33,510 nucleotides of DNA from Deltaproteobacteria bacterium (GTDB lineage: Bacteria; Desulfobacterota; Syntrophia; Syntrophales; UBA2210), in the NCBI GenBank assembly GCA_016930775.1, contig JAFGGB010000017.1, forward strand, positions 1 through 33,510. Direction: 5' to 3'. Below are positions 10,060 through 19,927 of this stretch, in pieces. A program made the translations under genes and the position numbers. The notes under the pieces were generated by a model. That model was not told the origin of the DNA. It was given only the letters and a program-made list of their open reading frames with translations, and searched no databases. Position 1 is the first letter of the stretch. Each line of letters begins with the position of its first letter.

Positions 10060-11457
10060 TTACTTGAAGGACTGCTGTCGGGACTCCTGCTCGTTAAAAG
10101 GCCACATTCCATCGAAGCAGGCAAGGCATAGCCTGCCGCGAGAGATTCCCAAGGCTCTGACGAAAGCATCGATGCTGTTGAATTTGACAGAGTCAGCAGC
10201 GGTTTCCGCAGCAATCCAGCGTTCCAGAGCCCGCTGCTCGTCCAGCGACTGAAATTTTCCGTCAGGCAGAAAACGGCGGGCGATCAGTTCTTCCCGCGTC
10301 CTCGTCGAAATCCCGAAATCACAAGGATACATAAGGGGAGGGCAGGCAACCCGCACATGAACTTCCCGGGCGCCTGCATCCTTTAGATCCCGCACCTTAT
10401 GACGGATCTGTGTTCCCCGAACGATAGAGTCGTCGCAGATCACGATTCGCCTGTTTTTAACGGCATGGGTAAGCACGGAGAGCTTCCTCTTCGCCATCCG
10501 GTCCCGGGCTGCCTGATTCGCTTGCATATAGCTGCGGTCGGCATAGCGATGGTAGAGAAAAACTTCCTGATAATTCATGCCTGACTGCATGTGATATCCG
10601 ATGGCGTGACCGATGCCTGAAAGCGGTATGGGCGCGACAATGTCGGCTTCTATGCCGCCCTCGTCGATATCCCTCTGCGCCAGTTCCCTGCCGAGGTTGT
10701 TACGGGCCTCTTGGACCGAAAGGCCGTCGATAATGGAATCGATGCTGGCCGTATAGGCCCACTCAAAAGCACAGTGGGCAATCCGCTTGCTCGGGACGCG
10801 GCAGACCGTCGTGAATCCCCGATGGTCGATGAGAACGACCTCCCCCGGTTCTACGTCTCGGACAATCTCAAGGTCGAGATTCTGGAGAGCTCTGGACTCC
10901 GAACTCACGGCATGCCGCTTTCCATCGCTGCCAAGCACAAGCGGCCGGAAACCCAGGGGGTCTCGCGCCGCATAGATTCCTTCTTTAGTGAGGACAACAA
11001 GGGAATAGGCGCCTCGGACCTTCGACGCAACCTTGACAAGGCCATCGACAATGTCACCGGCCTCTATAATTATTTTTGACAGAATTTCCACATGATACTG
11101 CTTGTAGAAACTCTTTCCCCGAGCCATCATCTCTTCAATGAGACTATCGGCGTTTATTACGTTGCCGCTGAATGCAACGGCAACTTCGCCGATATGGGTC
11201 TGCCATTTCATGGGTTGCCGTTCCAGGAGACTTACGTGACCGATGCCCCAACGTCCCTGAAGCTGGCTAAGTTCCGCGTCGGTAAAGCGTTCTACTACTT
11301 TTCCGTGGTGAGTCACATGATTGATTCCGTCGCCGAAAACCGATATTCCGCAGTACTCCTGACCTCGGTGCTGAAGAAAATCGAGGCCTCGGTAGATATC
11401 ATGGACACATTCATCGTTTCCATACATGGCGAAAACGCCGCATTTTTCTCCCGTCAT
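10060..11457 (-). CDS. PurF-like amidophosphoribosyltransferase homologue with altered glutaminase site
   Basis: A 465-residue homologue of PurF, which makes phosphoribosylamine from PRPP and glutamine. An N-terminal class II amidotransferase domain (nucleophile candidate Cys6 after a 5-residue propeptide; 'LQHRGQEYCGI') precedes a phosphoribosyltransferase domain with an intact PRPP loop ('VICDDSIVRGTQ', 339-350). Four Cys expected to hold the 4Fe-4S cluster of Bacillus-type PurF remain (229, 379, 444, 447). Several key residues differ. The glutamine-binding Arg of the usual 'HVRYST' is Ser76. The oxyanion-hole Asn of 'HNGN' is Ser97. The Asp of 'SDTEVL' is His122. The PRTase 'PDSG' reads 'PLSG' (279). 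It may be a paralogue with another nitrogen source or function. It starts 17 bp after carB and is probably cotranscribed. The reading frame is intact. Confidence 0.82.
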   Translation of the reverse strand: MTGEKCGVFAMYGNDECVHDIYRGLDFLQHRGQEYCGISVFGDGINHVTHHGKVVERFTDAELSQLQGRWGIGHVSLLERQPMKWQTHIGEVAVAFSGNVINADSLIEEMMARGKSFYKQYHVEILSKIIIEAGDIVDGLVKVASKVRGAYSLVVLTKEGIYAARDPLGFRPLVLGSDGKRHAVSSESRALQNLDLEIVRDVEPGEVVLIDHRGFTTVCRVPSKRIAHCAFEWAYTASIDSIIDGLSVQEARNNLGRELAQRDIDEGGIEADIVAPIPLSGIGHAIGYHMQSGMNYQEVFLYHRYADRSYMQANQAARDRMAKRKLSVLTHAVKNRRIVICDDSIVRGTQIRHKVRDLKDAGAREVHVRVACPPLMYPCDFGISTRTREELIARRFLPDGKFQSLDEQRALERWIAAETAADSVKFNSIDAFVRALGISRGRLCLACFDGMWPFNEQESRQQSFK

Positions 11458-11474: not shown

Positions 11475-14400
11475 TTACAGTATGTCTTTGTGATATTCCT
11501 GAAGCGATTTCAATTTCCCCCGCCCTGTCAGAACTGCCTTGATGCCCTTTGCCGCCGCGGCGGCGGCTGCGGTCGTCGTAATATAAGGTATCTTGAATTT
11601 TATGGCCGTCTTCCGGATGTAGGAATCGTCAAACTGACCCATCTTTCCTACAGGCGTATTGATCACCAGAAGTATCTCGCGGTTTTTGATGGCATCGACG
11701 ATGTTGGGACGCCCTTCATGCATCTTCATAATCAAATCGCTTTCGATGCCCTGGGCTGTTAAAAACTCTCTGGTTCCCGAGGTGGTCACAATTCCGAAAC
11801 CGAGGCTCTTGAAGGCCTTCGCTACCGGAACAATGGCGGTCTTGTCCCTCTCCGCCACCGTAATTAATATGTTCCCCGCCGTAGGAAGAGTCTGCTGAGC
11901 CGCCATTTCCGCCTTGAAGAAGGCCTCTCCAAAGCTGTCGGCCATACCAAGCACCTCGCCGGTGGATCTCATCTCCGGCCCGAGAACCGGGTCCACCTCG
12001 GGAAACATATTGAAAGGAAACACCGCTTCTTTGACGCCCACATGAGGTATTTTTCGAGGCCGCACTCCGATTTCGCCGATTGTTTTACCCGTCATCAACT
12101 GCGTTGCTATCCGCGCCATGGGAATATTGCAGACCTTGGACACGAGCGGCACGGTCCGCGACGCCCTGGGATTCGCCTCAAGAACGTACACAACATTGTT
12201 GGCTATGGCGTACTGCATGTTCATAAGACCTATAACATTCAATTCGCGGGCGATTCTTCGCGTATAGTCGTAGATGGTTTTTACGAGTTCGTCCGGTATC
12301 GTCACCGGAGGAATGGCGCAGGCGGAGTCGCCGGAATGAACGCCGGCAAACTCGATGTGCTCCATGACGGCGGGCACAAAGGAATCAACCCCGTCGGCCA
12401 AGGCGTCTGCTTCGCACTCAATGGCATTCTCCAGAAACTTGTCGATGAGAATCGGCCGCTCGGGCGTCACTTCCACGGCAGCTTCTATGTATCGCTTCAG
12501 ACTGCCCTCGTCATAGACGACTTCCATGCCACGGCCGCCCAGGACATAGGAAGGACGAACCATCAGTGGATAGCCTATGCGGGAAGCTATGGCCGAGGCT
12601 TCCTCAAAGTTGCTTGCCATGCCCGACTGAGGCTCCGGTATGCCCAGTCTTTCCATCACCTTTCTGAACCGGTCCCGGTCTTCCGCAAGATCGATCATTT
12701 CCGGCGATGTGCCGATGATTTTCACACCCGCCTCGGCGAGTTCTCCGGCAATATTAAGAGGCGTCTGGCCTCCGAACTGAACGATGACGCCTTCGGGTTG
12801 CTCCTTCTCGTAAATGGCCAGGACATCCTCCACAGTCAGCGGCTCGAAATAGAGCCGGTCGGACGTGTCATAATCGGTGGAAACCGTCTCGGGGTTGCAG
12901 TTGATCATGATGGACTCGAAGCCTTCGTCTTTCAAAGCGAAGGCTGCATGGACGCAGCAGTAGTCGAATTCGATGCCCTGGCCGATGCGGTTGGGACCTC
13001 CGCCGAGAACAATGATCTTCCGGCGACCCGATGGCGCCGCCTGATCGGGCCCGTTATAGGTAGAGTAATAATAGGCCGCATCTTCCACGCCGCTCACCGG
13101 AACGGCTTCCCATCCCTGGACGATCCTCAGAGCCTTCCGCCGCTCCCTGATGTCCTTTTCAGGGACCCCCAGAAGCCGCGACAGATACTTGTCCGCAAAA
13201 CCGTCCTTCTTTGTCGTTGCGAGGAGATCATCGGGAATCATCCCGCCTTTATACTTCAACACTTCCTCTTCCAGTTCGACGAGTTCCTTCATCTGCTCGA
13301 TGAACCAGGGCTTAATGAATGTCCGTGAATGAAGGTCTTCCACGGAGGCGCCCTTTCGAAGCGCCTCGTACATTATAAATTGTCTCTCACTGGAAGGTTG
13401 CGCAAGAAGACGGAGCAACTCATCCAGGGATTTCTTGTTGAAATCCTTTGCGAAACCAAGGCCGTAACGGTTGATCTCCAGGGACCGAATCGCCTTATGA
13501 AGAGCCTCTTTGTAAGTTTTGCCGATGCTCATTACCTCGCCAACGGCCCTCATCTGCGTGCCCAGAATATCCTGTGAACCGGGAAATTTTTCAAAGGCCC
13601 AGCGGGCGAATTTGACCACGACGTAATCGCCCGAGGGTTCGTACTTATCGAGGGTCCCCGCCCTCCAGTAGGGAATTTCATCAAGGGTAAGACCGGCTGC
13701 CAGCATGGCTGACACGAGAGCTATGGGAAATCCCGTTGCCTTGGAGGCTAGGGCCGACGACCGGGAGGTCCGGGGATTAATTTCGATAACGACTATGCGG
13801 TCCGTCTTCGGGTCGTGAGCGAATTGAACGTTCGTGCCGCCAATCACCTCAATGGCTTCAACGATTGTATAGGAATAGCGTTGAAGCCTCGCCTGGAGTT
13901 CCGGCGAGATGGTCAGCATCGGCGCCGTGCAGAAAGAATCGCCCGTATGGACGCCCATGGCGTCGACATTTTCGATGAAACAGACGGTAATCATCTGATT
14001 CTTCGCGTCGCGGACTACCTCCAGTTCGAGTTCCTCCCAACCCAGGACCGACTCCTCCACCAAGATCTGTCCGATCATGCTCGCGGCGATACCCCGGTTC
14101 GCAACAGTCTGCAATTCTTCACGGTTATAAACGAGGCCTCCGCCGGTGCCGCCGAGTGTATAGGCGGGGCGAATGACGACGGGATATCCAAGTTCATCGG
14201 CGATCGCTTCGGCCTCCTCCACGGTGTAGGCCGGCTTGCTGGCGGGCATGGGAACGCCGAGGCGGCTCATCGTTTCCTTGAACGCAATCCTGTCCTCGCC
14301 TCGTTCAATGGCGTCAACGTTAACACCGATTATTTTAACGCCGTATTCTTCGAGAATTCCTTTTTTGTTGAGTTCCGCCGTAAGATTCAGTCCCGTCTGG

Positions 14401-14675
14401 CCGCCCAGGTTAGGAAGTACGGCGTCGGGCCTTTCTTTCTTTATTATTTCCCGAAGAGATTCGACAGTGAGGGGTTCGATGTAGGTTGCGTCTGCCATGC
14501 CGGGATCGGTCATGATCGTCGCCGGATTGGAATTTACGAGAACAATCTCGTACCCCAGCTTTTTTAAGGCCTTGCAGGCCTGCGTACCGGAATAATCGAA
14601 CTCACAGGCCTGTCCTATAATGATGGGCCCCGAACCTATTATAAGAATCTTTCGTATATCGCGTCGTGCAGGCAT
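11475..14675 (-). CDS. carB: Carbamoyl-phosphate synthase large subunit
   Basis: The synthetase subunit that makes carbamoyl phosphate for pyrimidines and arginine. Its 1066 residues match the family. Two homologous halves are visible, each with a pre-ATP-grasp motif ('ILIIGSGPIIIGQACEFDYS' near 10; 'IIVLGGGPNRIGQGIEFDYC' near 560) and an ATP-grasp core ('VVIRPAYTLGGTGGG', 'LMVRPSYVLGGRGMEVVYDE'). The allosteric MGS-like domain occupies about 930-1066 ('INTPVGKMGQFDDSYIRK'). The ATG at 14675 follows a GGAGGAAAGGGTGA region. The partner carA is not in the window. The purF-like gene follows 17 bp downstream. A near-consensus promoter lies about 190 bp upstream. Confidence 0.97.
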   Translation of the reverse strand: MPARRDIRKILIIGSGPIIIGQACEFDYSGTQACKALKKLGYEIVLVNSNPATIMTDPGMADATYIEPLTVESLREIIKKERPDAVLPNLGGQTGLNLTAELNKKGILEEYGVKIIGVNVDAIERGEDRIAFKETMSRLGVPMPASKPAYTVEEAEAIADELGYPVVIRPAYTLGGTGGGLVYNREELQTVANRGIAASMIGQILVEESVLGWEELELEVVRDAKNQMITVCFIENVDAMGVHTGDSFCTAPMLTISPELQARLQRYSYTIVEAIEVIGGTNVQFAHDPKTDRIVVIEINPRTSRSSALASKATGFPIALVSAMLAAGLTLDEIPYWRAGTLDKYEPSGDYVVVKFARWAFEKFPGSQDILGTQMRAVGEVMSIGKTYKEALHKAIRSLEINRYGLGFAKDFNKKSLDELLRLLAQPSSERQFIMYEALRKGASVEDLHSRTFIKPWFIEQMKELVELEEEVLKYKGGMIPDDLLATTKKDGFADKYLSRLLGVPEKDIRERRKALRIVQGWEAVPVSGVEDAAYYYSTYNGPDQAAPSGRRKIIVLGGGPNRIGQGIEFDYCCVHAAFALKDEGFESIMINCNPETVSTDYDTSDRLYFEPLTVEDVLAIYEKEQPEGVIVQFGGQTPLNIAGELAEAGVKIIGTSPEMIDLAEDRDRFRKVMERLGIPEPQSGMASNFEEASAIASRIGYPLMVRPSYVLGGRGMEVVYDEGSLKRYIEAAVEVTPERPILIDKFLENAIECEADALADGVDSFVPAVMEHIEFAGVHSGDSACAIPPVTIPDELVKTIYDYTRRIARELNVIGLMNMQYAIANNVVYVLEANPRASRTVPLVSKVCNIPMARIATQLMTGKTIGEIGVRPRKIPHVGVKEAVFPFNMFPEVDPVLGPEMRSTGEVLGMADSFGEAFFKAEMAAQQTLPTAGNILITVAERDKTAIVPVAKAFKSLGFGIVTTSGTREFLTAQGIESDLIMKMHEGRPNIVDAIKNREILLVINTPVGKMGQFDDSYIRKTAIKFKIPYITTTAAAAAAAKGIKAVLTGRGKLKSLQEYHKDIL

Positions 14676-15089
14676 AGCTCACCCTTTCCTCCATTTATCG
14701 ATTAACGTCGCTCATGAGCAACCCCGTTCCCGAATCGGCTTCGAGCACGCTTTTCTTCCCGGCAGGAGTCCCGACATCCGCGGGTCCGTTTACCGCCTCA
14801 TCGAGATCCCGAAGGAACCCTGCCTGTCTGTGGATCGCTCCCAGAGATATTGACAAAACGAGCGGAGTATAGATAACGCCCTGTCTGGTGTCAAGGGGCT
14901 TTGATCTTTCAGACGGCGCCGTGGGATTTGTTCCGTGAAACCAGATATTAGAATCTGCATCGAGGCTCTCGGGCGCCCGACCATGAACTTCAGTCTTCGA
15001 AAAAGGGCTCGCCGCATCCAGGGGCGATTCCCTCAGTTTCTCTGCCGCAGTGCATCTCCCGCCGAATGGCCGCACATCGGAGGAAAAAG
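14676..15089. other. 414-bp gap between dnaJ and carB: promoter and leader, no convincing gene
   Basis: This gap contains the carB promoter (14866-14894) and about 180 nt of presumed 5' leader. In the leader, a near-perfect palindrome around GCTCATGAGC (14707-14722) lies 30 bp before the carB ATG. A 126-codon minus-strand frame (14695-15075, GTG start) spans the gap. It has no ribosome binding site and no recognisable domain, and the promoter lies inside it, so I do not call it a gene. Confidence 0.55.
14866..14894 (-). promoter_or_regulatory. Strong predicted sigma-70 promoter for carB and the purF-like gene
   Basis: The minus strand has a perfect -35 TTGACA (14889-14894), a 17-bp spacer and TATACT (14866-14871, five of six). 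Transcription should begin near 14859, leaving a leader of about 180 nt before the carB ATG. This is one of the two best sigma-70 promoters in the window. Confidence 0.7.
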
Positions 15090-16151
15090 TTACAACTCAC
15101 CCCGCAGACGGGCGAACTGTTTCAGCAGATCTTCTTCCTGTTTGCTCAGTTCGGAGGGTATTTCCACGAGAGTTTGAACGATCTGATCCCCCTTGCCGAA
15201 ACCCCGAAGATGCTGGAAACCATGTCCCTTGAGGCGGAATATCTTCCCATGTTGAGTCCCCCGGGGAATTTTCAGTTTTTCATCGCCGTTCAGCGTCGGG
15301 ACCTGGACCGTTGCCCCGAGAGCAGCCTGCGTCATGGAAATCGGAATCCGGCAGATAATATCGTCGCCGTCCCTCTCAAAGAATTCATGTTTCTTCACAT
15401 GCAGGAATATGTAGAGATCTCCCCTCGGTCCCCCGAAATCACCGGGTTCCCCTTCGCCTCTGAGACGAAGCCGGGACCCTGTCTCGACACCGGCCGGCAC
15501 CTTTATGTGCAACGACTTCATGCGGGAAAGCTTGCCGGCCCCGCTGCAGGAGGAACAGGGATGCTCTATCACGCGGCCGGCGCCCTGACAGTGGGGACAG
15601 GTCGTGCTGACGCTGAAAAATCCCGTCGTCCTTGTCACCTGACCACGCCCCCTGCACTGGGGACAGAGAACCGGTTCCGTGCCCTGCTCTGCTCCCATGC
15701 CGCCGCAGGCGCCGCACTGTTCCAATCGTTCGATCTCGATATCCCTGGAGATCCCCGAAGCGGCGTCGGCGAAGGATATTTCCAAGTCGTACCGGAGGTC
15801 GGCGCCAGCCCGAGGCGCCGTGCGCGACCTGGAACGGCCACCGTTGAATCCGAACACGCCTTCGAAAATATCGCCGAAATGGGAAAAAATGTCGTCGAAA
15901 CCGGAAAAACCGCTGAAACCGGCGCCGCTCAACCCGTCATGGCCGAAACGGTCGTAGATCTGGCGTTTTTCGGAGTCCCTGAGCACTTCGTAGGCCTCGG
16001 CAGCTTCTTTGAATTTCTCTTCTGCTTCCTTGTTACCGGGATTCCTGTCGGGATGGCACTTCAAGGCAAGTTTGCGGTAGCTTTTCTTAATTTCCTCGTC
16101 GGTGGCCGACGAGCTCACTCCAAGAATTGTGTAATAATCCTTACGAATCAT
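15090..16151 (-). CDS. dnaJ: Chaperone protein DnaJ (Hsp40)
   Basis: Class I Hsp40 that delivers substrates to DnaK and stimulates its ATPase. In 353 residues it has the J domain with HPD at 33-35 ('KCHPDRNPG'), a Gly/Phe-rich linker ('[16 protein letters not shown]'), and a zinc-finger region with four CxxCxGxG repeats ('CGACGGMG', 'CPQCRGRG', 'CPHCQGAG', 'CSSCSGAG'). The C-terminal substrate-binding domain ends with '[16 protein letters not shown]'. The upstream ribosome binding site is weak. It lies 136 bp after purC on the same strand and far from dnaK (746-2674), so its expression may be uncoupled from grpE-dnaK unless a second copy exists elsewhere. Confidence 0.95.
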
Positions 16152-16287
16152 GGTCCAACTGTCTGCCGTGAGGAATCACGGCGATATCTTGCATCAATCT
16201 TTCGCATACCTCTGCGGAAGCGGCGACACCGGAAAACGACCATAAGATAGTAACCGAACGGGCCGGTGTCAAGGCGACGGCGGGCTT

Positions 16288-17172
16288 TTACCGAATAATC
16301 CGCTCCAGAGCCTCGGCGTAACGTTCTTTCGTTTTCACAATTATTTCCGTCGGGAGCGCCGGCGGAGGCGGTTCTTTGTTCCAATCGAGGGATTCCAGAT
16401 AATCCCTGAGAAACTGCTTGTCAAAACTATTCTGCGCCCGGCCGGGTTCATACGTATCCTTGGGCCAGAACCGGGACGAATCCGGTGTTAGAAGCTCATC
16501 GATCAGGATAAGCTTGCCGGAGGCAATGCCGAATTCCAATTTCGTATCGGCTATGATAATCCCGCCCCGGTCGGCAATTTCCTGGGCGCGCCTGTATATC
16601 AGGAGAGATGCCTCAATGATTCTATCCGTCAGATCGATCCCGATAAGGTTCGCCACCTCGGCGCGGGTTATGGGAAGGTCATGATGACCTTGCTCGGCCT
16701 TTGTGGATGGAGTAAATACGGGTTCCGGTAGTTTTGACGATTCCGCAAGACCGGACGGCAGTCTTACCCCCGATACGGCGCCGGTATTCCGGTAATCTTT
16801 CCAGCCTGATCCGCTGAGGTACCCTCGTACGACGCACTCAACGGGAAGGGGTTTCGCCTTGCGGACGAGCATGCTCCTGCCGGCCAGTTGCTCGGCGTAG
16901 GGCCTGCATTCGGCCGGATAGGCATCGACATCCGTTGACAGGAGGTGATTCGGTACGATGTCTTTCATTCTTTCAAACCAGAAGGCGGACAGGGTCGTCA
17001 GAATCTCTCCCTTGCCCGGGATAGGTTCGTTCATGATTACATCGAAGGCGGAGATTCGATCGGAAGCCACTATCAAAAGACAATCAGAAACCTCGTAAAT
17101 GTCTCTCACCTTTCCCCTGCCCATGAGTTTCAGCGTTGACATGCTGGTTTGACGAAGACCCTTCTCGGCCAT
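16288..17172 (-). CDS. purC: Phosphoribosylaminoimidazole-succinocarboxamide synthase (SAICAR synthetase)
   Basis: The step of purine synthesis that joins aspartate to CAIR using ATP. The 294-residue length corresponds to the longer form found in many bacteria and yeast. Motifs include '[11 protein letters not shown]' (nucleotide-binding loop), '[20 protein letters not shown]', '[20 protein letters not shown]' and '[10 protein letters not shown]'. The ATG at 17172 is supported by AGGAG 8 nt upstream, in preference to a second Met at residue 11. It starts 6 bp after the stop codon of the metallo-hydrolase gene, so the two are cotranscribed. Confidence 0.96.
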
Positions 17173-17178
17173 TGCCCG

Positions 17179-17811
17179 TTACTCCTGTAAAAAGGGATTG
17201 TTTCTTTTTTCATTACCGATTGTGGAGCGTTCTTCCCGGCCGTAATTATGTCCCGGCAGCACTACTGTCTCATCCGGAAGAACAAACAGCCTGGAACGGA
17301 TGGAATCTCTCATGACTTCCCATGATCCGCCGGGCAGGTCGGTCCTGCCCACAGCCTCTACGAAAAGCGTGTCGCCGGTAATCACGTATCCGGGAACATA
17401 GAGAGCGATCCCTCCGGGCGTGTGTCCCGGCACATGGATGACCCGAAGAGAAATCGAGCCGACGTTAATGCAATCTCCGTCACGGACCGTCCTGTCGGCT
17501 ATCGGCGACTGCTTCGCATGACACATGAGAAGCATGACAGGCGAAGCGGCGCCGAGCATGAGGGCATCGTCCTCGTGGATAATAATCTTCGCTCCCGTGC
17601 GGCTTTTCATATCGGCGTTGCCACCGGTATGATCGGAATGACCGTGGGTGTTCACGATATATTTTATTGAAATGCCATATTTTTCGGCCTCGGCGACAAT
17701 ATCGTCGGCCCGGGAAGCCGGATCGACTGCAAGACCCTCCCCTGTTTCCTCGTCACCGACGAGATAGGCAAAAACGGCCATAGGGCCCACCTGCATCTGT
17801 CGCAGCACCAT
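17179..17811 (-). CDS. Metallo-beta-lactamase-fold hydrolase (glyoxalase II-like)
   Basis: A 210-residue cytoplasmic metallo-hydrolase. The dinuclear metal motif 'NTHGHSDHTGGN' (H-x-H-x-D-H) is intact, and further ligands lie in 'VIHVPGHTPGGIALYV' and 'VVLPGHNYGREERS'. 'VITGDTLFVEAVGRTDLPGG' supplies the bridging Asp and is typical of the glyoxalase II-like YcbL/GloB group. The natural thioester or other substrate cannot be deduced. It lacks the C-terminal helical domain of full-length glyoxalase II. It is tightly coupled to purC (6 bp) and preceded by a 117-bp gap with a possible promoter. Confidence 0.9.
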   Translation of the reverse strand: MVLRQMQVGPMAVFAYLVGDEETGEGLAVDPASRADDIVAEAEKYGISIKYIVNTHGHSDHTGGNADMKSRTGAKIIIHEDDALMLGAASPVMLLMCHAKQSPIADRTVRDGDCINVGSISLRVIHVPGHTPGGIALYVPGYVITGDTLFVEAVGRTDLPGGSWEVMRDSIRSRLFVLPDETVVLPGHNYGREERSTIGNEKRNNPFLQE

Positions 17812-17875
17812 TGATCCTCATCCTCCTCTATCTCTATGGCGGCCGTGCCCACCCGGGTTAAAAAACAAGGTACAT

Positions 17876-17904
17876 TACCTACACTCTCCGGAAGGAAAGG
17901 TCAA
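17876..17904 (-). promoter_or_regulatory. Possible promoter before the metallo-hydrolase gene
   Basis: On the minus strand TTGACC (17899-17904, five of six) lies 17 bp from TAGGTA (17876-17881), a poor -10 match. It is in the 117-bp gap between the HD-domain gene and the hydrolase gene and could give the hydrolase-purC-dnaJ part of the cluster its own start. Confidence 0.3.
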
Positions 17905-17928
17905 CGGGGGAAAATGTTATTCGGCGCC

Positions 17929-18507
17929 TCAGGATTCTCCGGCGAGACCGATTTCGTCGGCCACCTGGCGCATACCCATTATCACATCGTCGACAAGCGC
18001 CGGAATATTCATGCCGAGCATAGCGGCGCCCTGTTCTATAATTGAACGATCCACGCCGGCAGCGAAGGCCGGGGACTTCCACTTCTTCATCACCGATTTC
18101 ACCGTGAGATCTTTCAGGCTTTTCGACGGCCTGACAAGGGCGCTCGCCGCCACGAGTCCCGTGAGTTCATCGACGGCAAAAAGCGTCTTTTCGAGATCCG
18201 TTTTGGGCTCCAGATCGGAACAGATTCCCCAACCGTGTGAACGAACCGCCCGAATCAATGGTTCGGGCCACATACGCGCTTTCAAAATCTCGCCGGTCTT
18301 TCGGCAGTGTTCCTCGGGGAAGAGCCCGTAGTCGAGATCGTGGATGAGCCCGACAATTCCCCAGGTCTCCTCGTCTTCGCCCCGCTTCCGGGCCATATGT
18401 CTCATGACGGCCTCCACGGCGTAGGCATGGCGTCTGAGACTTTCATTTTCATTGAATTCGTGGAGCAAGGCGATCGCTTCATCGCGGGAGGGAATTTTTG
18501 AATCCAT
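17929..18507 (-). CDS. HD-domain (HDIG-type) protein, putative phosphohydrolase
   Basis: A 192-residue HD-superfamily protein. The metal site is visible as 'RRHAYAVEAVMRHMA' (first His), 'VGLIHDLDYG' (the HD pair) and a later 'RAVRSHGWG'. Proteins of this family usually hydrolyse phosphoester bonds in nucleotides or act as small metal phosphohydrolases; the substrate here is unknown. The ribosome binding site of its ATG (AAAGGA) overlaps the last codons of rsmB, with a 4-bp gap, so the two are cotranscribed and probably translationally coupled. Confidence 0.85.
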   Translation of the reverse strand: MDSKIPSRDEAIALLHEFNENESLRRHAYAVEAVMRHMARKRGEDEETWGIVGLIHDLDYGLFPEEHCRKTGEILKARMWPEPLIRAVRSHGWGICSDLEPKTDLEKTLFAVDELTGLVAASALVRPSKSLKDLTVKSVMKKWKSPAFAAGVDRSIIEQGAAMLGMNIPALVDDVIMGMRQVADEIGLAGES

Positions 18508-18511
18508 GGTT

Positions 18512-19864
18512 CTATCCTTTCTCTCTTGTCGTCAGACGGACTGCATAAAAACCGTCCGTTCCATGCCGATGGGGATATGAACGAAAGGAATTCTCCCCGT
18601 CAAGCATCTCCACGGGGAAATGCCCCGGCGGAGATGCGCGGCGAAAGTCCGGCCTGGCATCGAGAAAAGCCCCCGCGTTTCCCTCGTTCTCTTCTCGCGA
18701 TATGGCGCAGGTGCTGTACACCATGACGCCCCCTTTCTTCATATATTGAACGGCGGCGGCAAGGAGTCGTCGCTGCAGTTCCGCCGCACCCTGAATCTCC
18801 CCGGATTGGCGCTGCCACTTGATCTCCGGATTTCTTCTCAACGTGCCGAGACCAGAGCAGGGCGCATCCACGAGAATACGGTCAAAAACACCGCGATATT
18901 TCTCCCCGAGAAATTCCGTGGCATCGGCCGTCACCGTCTCGATAATCGAAACGCCATGTCTGCGGGAAAGAACCTCCAGTTCGTCGATCTTCCGTTTCTT
19001 ATTGTCCACGGCGACGATCATGCCGCGATTTTCCATCAATTCCGCCAGATGGGTCGTTTTTATGCCTGCGCCGGCGCAGAGATCGAGAACCCTGTGACCG
19101 GGCAGGGGATCGAGAAAAGGAGCTATCATCTGAGAGGCCTCGTCCTGAACCTGCAAGAGCCCCTCCCGGAAGTACGATGTTTCAGAAACCGGCACGGCCG
19201 AGCCGTAAAGATGTACTCCTGCGGTTGCGTATCTGCAGGGCTTCGCTTCCCAACCCTCTGTGCGGAGATTCTCGATTATGGCCGAACGATCGTTTTTTAT
19301 GCGATTGATCCGGATTGTCAGGGGCGGTATTTCATTGTTGGCCTCGCAGAGAGCCTTCGCCTCTTCTTCTCCCAGCTCAAAAATCCACTTTCTAAGGAGC
19401 CAGGGCGGATGCGAAAGTTGAACAGACAGAGGAAACATGGGATCATCCCCCAGAGCCGGACAAGGGAGGCGCCCAAGGCTGCGAACTATGTTTCTAAGGA
19501 TGCCGTTTACCAGACCGGATCTCCCGGGGTAGGCCTTTTTCGTCATCTCCACGGCCTCGTTGACTGCAGCGTACGGAGGAATCCGATCCGTATGAAGAAT
19601 CTGAAAGAGGGCCGTTCGAAGTATATTCCGTATGCCCGTATCCATCCGGTCAATATCGCCCCGGAAGAAGCTCCCGATGAGAAAATCCAGTTCTCCCCTT
19701 CTCCGAAGAGTCCCGTAGACTATGTTCGTCGCGAGAGCTTTGTCGCTTTTTTCGGTGAAAGCTTCACCGGAGAGGCAGTGATCCAGGAGAGGCCCTGCGT
19801 AGGACCTCTCCTCGTCTACACGGTTCAGAACAGCAACGGCAATAAATCGGGGATTCTGTGTCAT
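18512..19864 (-). CDS. rsmB: 16S rRNA (cytosine(967)-C(5))-methyltransferase RsmB
   Basis: SAM-dependent methyltransferase that modifies C967 of 16S rRNA. Residues about 1-140 form the NusB-like RNA-binding domain ('VLNRVDEERSYAGPLLDHCL') and the rest the Rossmann methyltransferase. SAM motif I is 'VLDLCAGAGIKTTHLAEL'. The two catalytic Cys are in 'VDAPCSGLGTLRRNPEIKW' and 'VYSTCAISREENEG'. I chose the ATG at 19864 (450 residues), which begins 'MTQNPRFIAVAVLNRV' as in relatives and follows AAAGGA, over one 42 bp upstream that lacks a ribosome binding site. It lies between the DUF3047 gene and the HD gene in the fmt cluster. Confidence 0.94.
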   Translation of the reverse strand: MTQNPRFIAVAVLNRVDEERSYAGPLLDHCLSGEAFTEKSDKALATNIVYGTLRRRGELDFLIGSFFRGDIDRMDTGIRNILRTALFQILHTDRIPPYAAVNEAVEMTKKAYPGRSGLVNGILRNIVRSLGRLPCPALGDDPMFPLSVQLSHPPWLLRKWIFELGEEEAKALCEANNEIPPLTIRINRIKNDRSAIIENLRTEGWEAKPCRYATAGVHLYGSAVPVSETSYFREGLLQVQDEASQMIAPFLDPLPGHRVLDLCAGAGIKTTHLAELMENRGMIVAVDNKKRKIDELEVLSRRHGVSIIETVTADATEFLGEKYRGVFDRILVDAPCSGLGTLRRNPEIKWQRQSGEIQGAAELQRRLLAAAVQYMKKGGVMVYSTCAISREENEGNAGAFLDARPDFRRASPPGHFPVEMLDGENSFRSYPHRHGTDGFYAVRLTTREKG

Positions 19865-19927
19865 GGTTCCTTTAAAGAAAAACGGCCCATAATTCTTAGT
19901 CCGCATTGAGGATATCGTTATGAGAGT

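Follow-up and report, generated by a model that had tools for sequence, protein, structure and literature searches.

Background

PurF and carbamoyl-phosphate synthase are classic examples of glutamine amidotransferases, and the canonical forms of both take ammonia derived from glutamine. The PurF structures of Bacillus subtilis (1gph/1ao0) and Escherichia coli (1ecc) have a two-domain fold, an N-terminal cysteine (Cys1) exposed after a short leader, and a PRPP loop. The glutamine loop extends from R73 to E84, one wall of the NH3 channel is formed by Y74 and I335, and PRPP is contacted by T333, R371, T374, and K349 (PMC7953260).

Several described systems bear on the use of ammonia itself. PurF mutants in Cys1 still use ammonia, and crenarchaea have a PurF paralogue, PurF', that lacks a normal glutaminase, occurs beside a true PurF, and was likewise proposed to depend on ammonia (PMC3261824). 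In vivo, E. coli CarB on its own forms carbamoyl phosphate from NH3, according to the title of Rubino 1987 as cited in PMC6245113. Human CPS1, a carbamoyl-phosphate synthase uncoupled from glutamine, is ammonia-specific after loss of the glutaminase cysteine (PMC4655335).

The locus described here lies in a window of 33,510 nucleotides, the whole stretch of DNA that was analysed, and consists of a PurF-like gene and carB1, a second, divergent gene for the large subunit of carbamoyl-phosphate synthase. A literature search found no description of this pair, and a search with Desulfovibrio locus tags was likewise empty. The explanation favoured here, with a probability of about 0.4, is that carB1 and the PurF-like gene form a duplicated pair that has become uncoupled from glutamine, most likely using free ammonium.

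Results and discussion

The PurF-like gene and its fold

The features of the locus are collected in Table 1. An earlier note on this DNA had described the frame of the PurF homologue as intact, and 465 unbroken codons were found on the minus strand, starting 17 nt past the carB1 stop. The protein aligned over its full length with B. subtilis PurF (2.6e-79). An AlphaFold2 model (pLDDT 89) matched PurF structures over the whole length with TM-scores of 0.85-0.87, and the predicted structure is a full-length PurF fold. Unlike PurF proper, the protein scored 324.7 bits with TIGR01134 (purF equivalog), below the curated cut-off of 350. The listed members of its group, designated type A, scored 296-330 bits versus 504-539 for complete canonical copies.

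Table 1. Positions of the genes, residues, and motifs of the carB1/PurF-like locus within the window
Feature	Position	Strand	Remarks
PurF-like gene (type A)	10060..11457	minus	465 aa, single intact frame; coding part 11457 down to 10063, stop 10060-10062
Cys6 codon, N-terminal nucleophile (Cys1 of PurF)	11440..11442	minus	after five-residue leader MTGEK; Cys in 45/45 type A
Ser76, opposite Arg73	11230..11232	minus	at the 8-residue deletion; Ser in 45/45 type A, Arg in 19/19 canonical
Ser97, opposite Asn101	11167..11169	minus	Ser in 44/45 type A, Asn in 19/19 canonical
His122, opposite Asp127	11092..11094	minus	column in type A: Asn 21, Asp 18, His 5, Gln 1
Span of Fe-S cysteines C229, C379, C444, C447	10117..10773	minus	aligned to B. 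subtilis C236, C382, C437, C440
PRTase flexible loop, residues 302-325, YHRYADRSYM	10483..10554	minus	remodelled; Arg308, Arg318, Lys325 kept
PRPP loop CDDSIVRGTQ, residues 341-350	10408..10437	minus	last residue Gln350 for Thr
carB1, second divergent carbamoyl-phosphate synthase large subunit	11475..14675	minus	NF003671, 1521.7 bits
Sigma-70-like promoter match TTGACA-17-TATACT ahead of carB1	14866..14894	minus	11/12 consensus positions; consensus match only

The glutamine site

Alignments with B. subtilis PurF (1gph/1ao0), the Arabidopsis structure 6lbp, and 45 type A relatives confirmed the earlier claim that R73, N101, and D127 of E. coli PurF correspond to Ser76, Ser97, and His122, and no alternative placement of the Arg and Asn appeared. 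Residue counts were taken over 45 type A, 15 type B, and 19 canonical PurFs. The loop that had been called shortened carries a deletion of eight residues, which is present in all of the aligned type A and type B proteins. Y74 is deleted in the PurF-like protein, and the position of I335, the other residue of the channel wall, is Thr in 41 of the 45 type A proteins and Met in the window protein. Chance or sequencing error was ruled out as the source of the altered site, given the 40 or more independent homologues with open frames and the near uniformity of Ser76 and Ser97 among them.

The N-terminal cysteine was, as the earlier note held, kept, and throughout type A. The leader that precedes it ends in [DE]N in 37 of the 38 readable type A sequences and in EK in the window protein. 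The retention of both Cys1 and this conserved leader speaks for a continued importance of the N-terminal Cys in type A. The RGQ motif and Gly98 are also retained, and the pocket has acquired residues that are invariant or nearly invariant in type A, namely Arg80 (invariant across the alignment), Phe96, Ser97, Cys36, and Arg189. In three loci (L004, L006, and L007) the type A glutaminase domain contains, after residue ~43, about 26 additional residues that the others lack. The most divergent type A protein, from genome G028, has FSGK and Gly in place of Glu124.

The retention of Cys1, RGQ, and Gly98, the invariant Arg80, and the Asp or Asn that most type A proteins have at the Asp127 position could be accommodated by a PurF that still depends on glutamine and tolerates the altered site, for example with Arg80 replacing Arg73. 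Such an enzyme is nevertheless very improbable, since the loss of the glutamine loop and of the oxyanion Asn is general, Cys1 is absent from type B, and 18 of the 22 genomes with type A also carry a canonical PurF, whole or as a fragment. The best reading of the alignments is that the link to glutamine has probably been lost in the PurF-like clade.

The transferase site

The PRPP loop, which the earlier note had called perfect, is not: its final residue, the equivalent of E. coli T374, is Gln in 45/45 type A and 15/15 type B proteins and Thr in all 19 canonical ones. Of the other PRPP contacts, T333 is replaced by Ser in the window protein and R371 and K349 are retained; the PRPP-binding Asp, Ser, Arg, and Lys are kept in both type A and type B. 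The changes noted earlier in 'PDSG' and 'GRTFI' were also found, the motifs being PLSG and DRSYM here, and the remodelled flexible loop is nearly invariant within type A. On the acceptor side, types A and B have in common the changes of Thr374 to Gln, Ile335 to Thr, and Phe334 to Tyr, and of Ala to His after the PPi loop. The four Fe-S cysteines, of the B. subtilis type, are present as the earlier note had said and show no substitution in the type A, type B, or canonical alignment.

These derived transferase residues, the new pocket residues of type A, and the conserved [DE]N leader would fit a phosphoribosyltransferase that uses a new amine acceptor or, in type A, a new amide donor, in which the acceptor site and the glutamine pocket have been rebuilt and Cys1 is working in type A. 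The suggestion of a different transferase in the earlier note agrees with this alternative, which is credible but unlikely: neither a substrate nor an additional pathway gene is associated with the locus, around which lie ordinary genes of nitrogen and nucleotide metabolism. Taking over from orotate phosphoribosyltransferase was considered as one such role. No pyrE was recognised in the window's own genome, a 97% complete draft (best score 22.9 bits), but pyrE scored above the cut-off in two type A and two type B genomes, so this role cannot be general and was rejected.

Two clades of PurF-like proteins

A scan of named genomes gave 41 relatives, the titles of which point to Desulfobacterota-type bacteria; the phylum names shown for 'Deltaproteobacteria' MAGs at NCBI are unreliable. 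Among 395 genomes of the phylum, mostly drafts, type A was found in 22 and type B in 78. The two types were together in none of the 395, an outcome with a chance of 0.007 if they occur independently and the genomes are treated as unrelated. In unrooted trees type A, type B, and canonical PurF each formed one group. The idea that the carB-linked members are a clade sharing Ser76, Ser97, and His122 thus stood for the clade and the two serines and failed for His122, which is a local feature and not a marker of type A, because its column is mixed (Table 1).

Type B has the same deletion, carries Ser or Gly at the Cys1 position, lacks Arg26 and the glutamine Asn and Asp, and retains the PRPP loop and the Fe-S cysteines. 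Types A and B were taken as sisters because they share the deletion and at least ten derived residues, mostly in the transferase domain. The loss of the N-terminal cysteine seen in crenarchaeal PurF' was found in type B only. PurF' lies among purine genes, in contrast to type A, which has the cysteine and sits with carB1.

The association with carB

The gene immediately upstream of type A is a carB in 29 of 41 named loci and in 19 of the 22 surveyed genomes. Type B adjoins carB in 11 of 55 loci, in some from upstream and in others from downstream, so that the two genes are found together in at least two arrangements. A tree built from 53 CarB sequences placed all carB genes linked to type A or type B in the carB1 clade (34/34 aligned) and all those linked to canonical purF in a second clade, carB2; the split had a support of 100. 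Whole carB-purF pairs therefore exist in two versions. The identity between CarB1 and CarB2 is about 53%, and carB1 and the PurF-like gene may have arisen by one joint duplication.

CarB1 retains the residues assigned to the two ATP sites, those of the tunnel gate (Cys232/Ala251), and almost all of the ornithine and nucleotide-effector residues, the exceptions being Ser948 to Thr and, in the tunnel, Ile352 to Gly. The tunnel gate was checked against the description of human CPS1 (PMC4655335). Where CarB2 is the same as E. coli, CarB1 has fixed differences at 31 of 400 positions of the first half, compared with 7 of 381 of the second, which is homologous to it (p = 9e-5); these differences clustered at 214-282 and 337-352. 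The first synthetase half is where ammonia meets carboxyphosphate. CarB1 would have the role of human CPS1, with the difference that CPS1 has a dead, fused glutaminase and needs N-acetylglutamate, whereas CarB1 is a separate large subunit of the bacterial type.

Regulators derived from other enzymes are known, such as PyrR and PurR of B. subtilis and HisZ, and the conserved PRPP-binding residues, the lost glutamine chemistry, and the exclusive linkage to carB1 would suit a regulatory paralogue that senses PRPP and binds CarB1 or controls the operon. A regulator is rather doubtful, however, in that the near invariance of the flexible loop and the Fe-S cysteines goes beyond the needs of ligand binding, and the full-length PurF fold carries no DNA- or RNA-binding addition. 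It is improbable, too, that CarB1 and the PurF-like protein are a two-enzyme unit that joins a nitrogen carrier beyond glutamine and free ammonia (carbamate or another amide, for example) to PRPP, or that channels an intermediate between them.

The recurrent neighbours in related loci are an FMN-type glutamate synthase, glnA, asnB, GAF-ANTAR, NrpR-like, nadE, and guaA, identified by reading the sequences or by similarity to such readings, without profiles. The GAF-ANTAR protein adjoins the FMN-type glutamate synthase beside carB1 and the PurF-like gene in five loci (L024, L012, L028, L031, and L182).

The canonical set in the same genome

A second, canonical purF, which the earlier note had proposed to look for, is present in the same genome on contig C185 with R73, N101, and D127 intact. 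It encodes a protein 38% identical to the PurF-like one, and the earlier view that the latter is a paralogue was upheld by this coexistence. The same note had taken carA to be missing; no carA was seen beside carB1, but the gene lies on C185, flanked by guaA and carB2 on one side and by aspS-purF on the other. Only the first 752 residues of carB2 are encoded there, at the contig edge. The canonical purF follows carB2, usually with carA, in most of the type A genomes examined, in several with type B, and in two with neither.

A canonical PurF was not found in four of the 22 type A genomes, G028 (L055/L122), G329, G163, and G392, all of them draft or incomplete, versus about 7 of 140 genomes without type A, the latter counted by eye (p ~0.04). 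In three of these four, purD scored above the cut-off, a hint that type A may be able to make phosphoribosylamine. The case for type A as the sole PurF was weak, given the draft genomes and a probable frameshift error (purM is broken in G028), and this reading was set aside.

A pair that may use free ammonium

We infer that both proteins are active enzymes, with NH4+ as the nitrogen source and phosphoribosylamine as the product of the PurF-like protein. In each duplicate the side that delivers ammonia is altered and the side that uses it is kept. The PurF-like protein would still bind PRPP and has its Fe-S cysteines, and has lost the glutamine loop, with Arg73 and the channel wall residue Tyr74, and the oxyanion Asn. 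In CarB1 the residues of the ATP sites and nearly all allosteric ones are retained, and the half that receives ammonia is remodelled. The pair would make carbamoyl phosphate and phosphoribosylamine from free ammonium instead of glutamine, as a second entry to pyrimidine and arginine synthesis and to purine synthesis in anaerobes with much ammonium. Direct use of ammonium is favoured because the same pattern is seen in both duplicates and because nitrogen genes are the neighbours. A function shared by types A and B would need no glutaminase, because type B, without Cys1 and Arg26, lies beside the same carB1 clade; a common role in supplying glutamine-derived NH3 to CarB was discarded since type B beside carB1 has no Cys1.

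Several observations stand against the use of free ammonium, 1) Cys1, RGQ, and the leader of type A point to a working nucleophile and perhaps an amide donor other than glutamine, 2) the acceptor-side changes of types A and B exceed what free NH3 would need, 3) CarB1 might work with the distant CarA, and 4) type B genes mostly lie away from carB.

If the proposed use of ammonium is correct, some anaerobes would have, beside the normal set, a parallel route into purine and pyrimidine synthesis that does not depend on glutamine. Annotation would be corrected as well, in that the PurF-like proteins are similar enough to be named amidophosphoribosyltransferase, yet fall below the curated cut-off of the family.

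Other gene orders

Upstream of carB1 in the window, at 15090-19906 on the minus strand, are dnaJ, purC, the gene of an MBL-fold hydrolase, that of an HD-domain protein, and rsmB. The order MBL-purC-dnaJ-carB1-purF-like-M23 is common to the window and loci L004, L005, and L006. In one set of related genomes (among L118, L119, and L193-L196) the type B gene comes immediately after dapL, and it follows dapL-dapF-guaA in five other loci.
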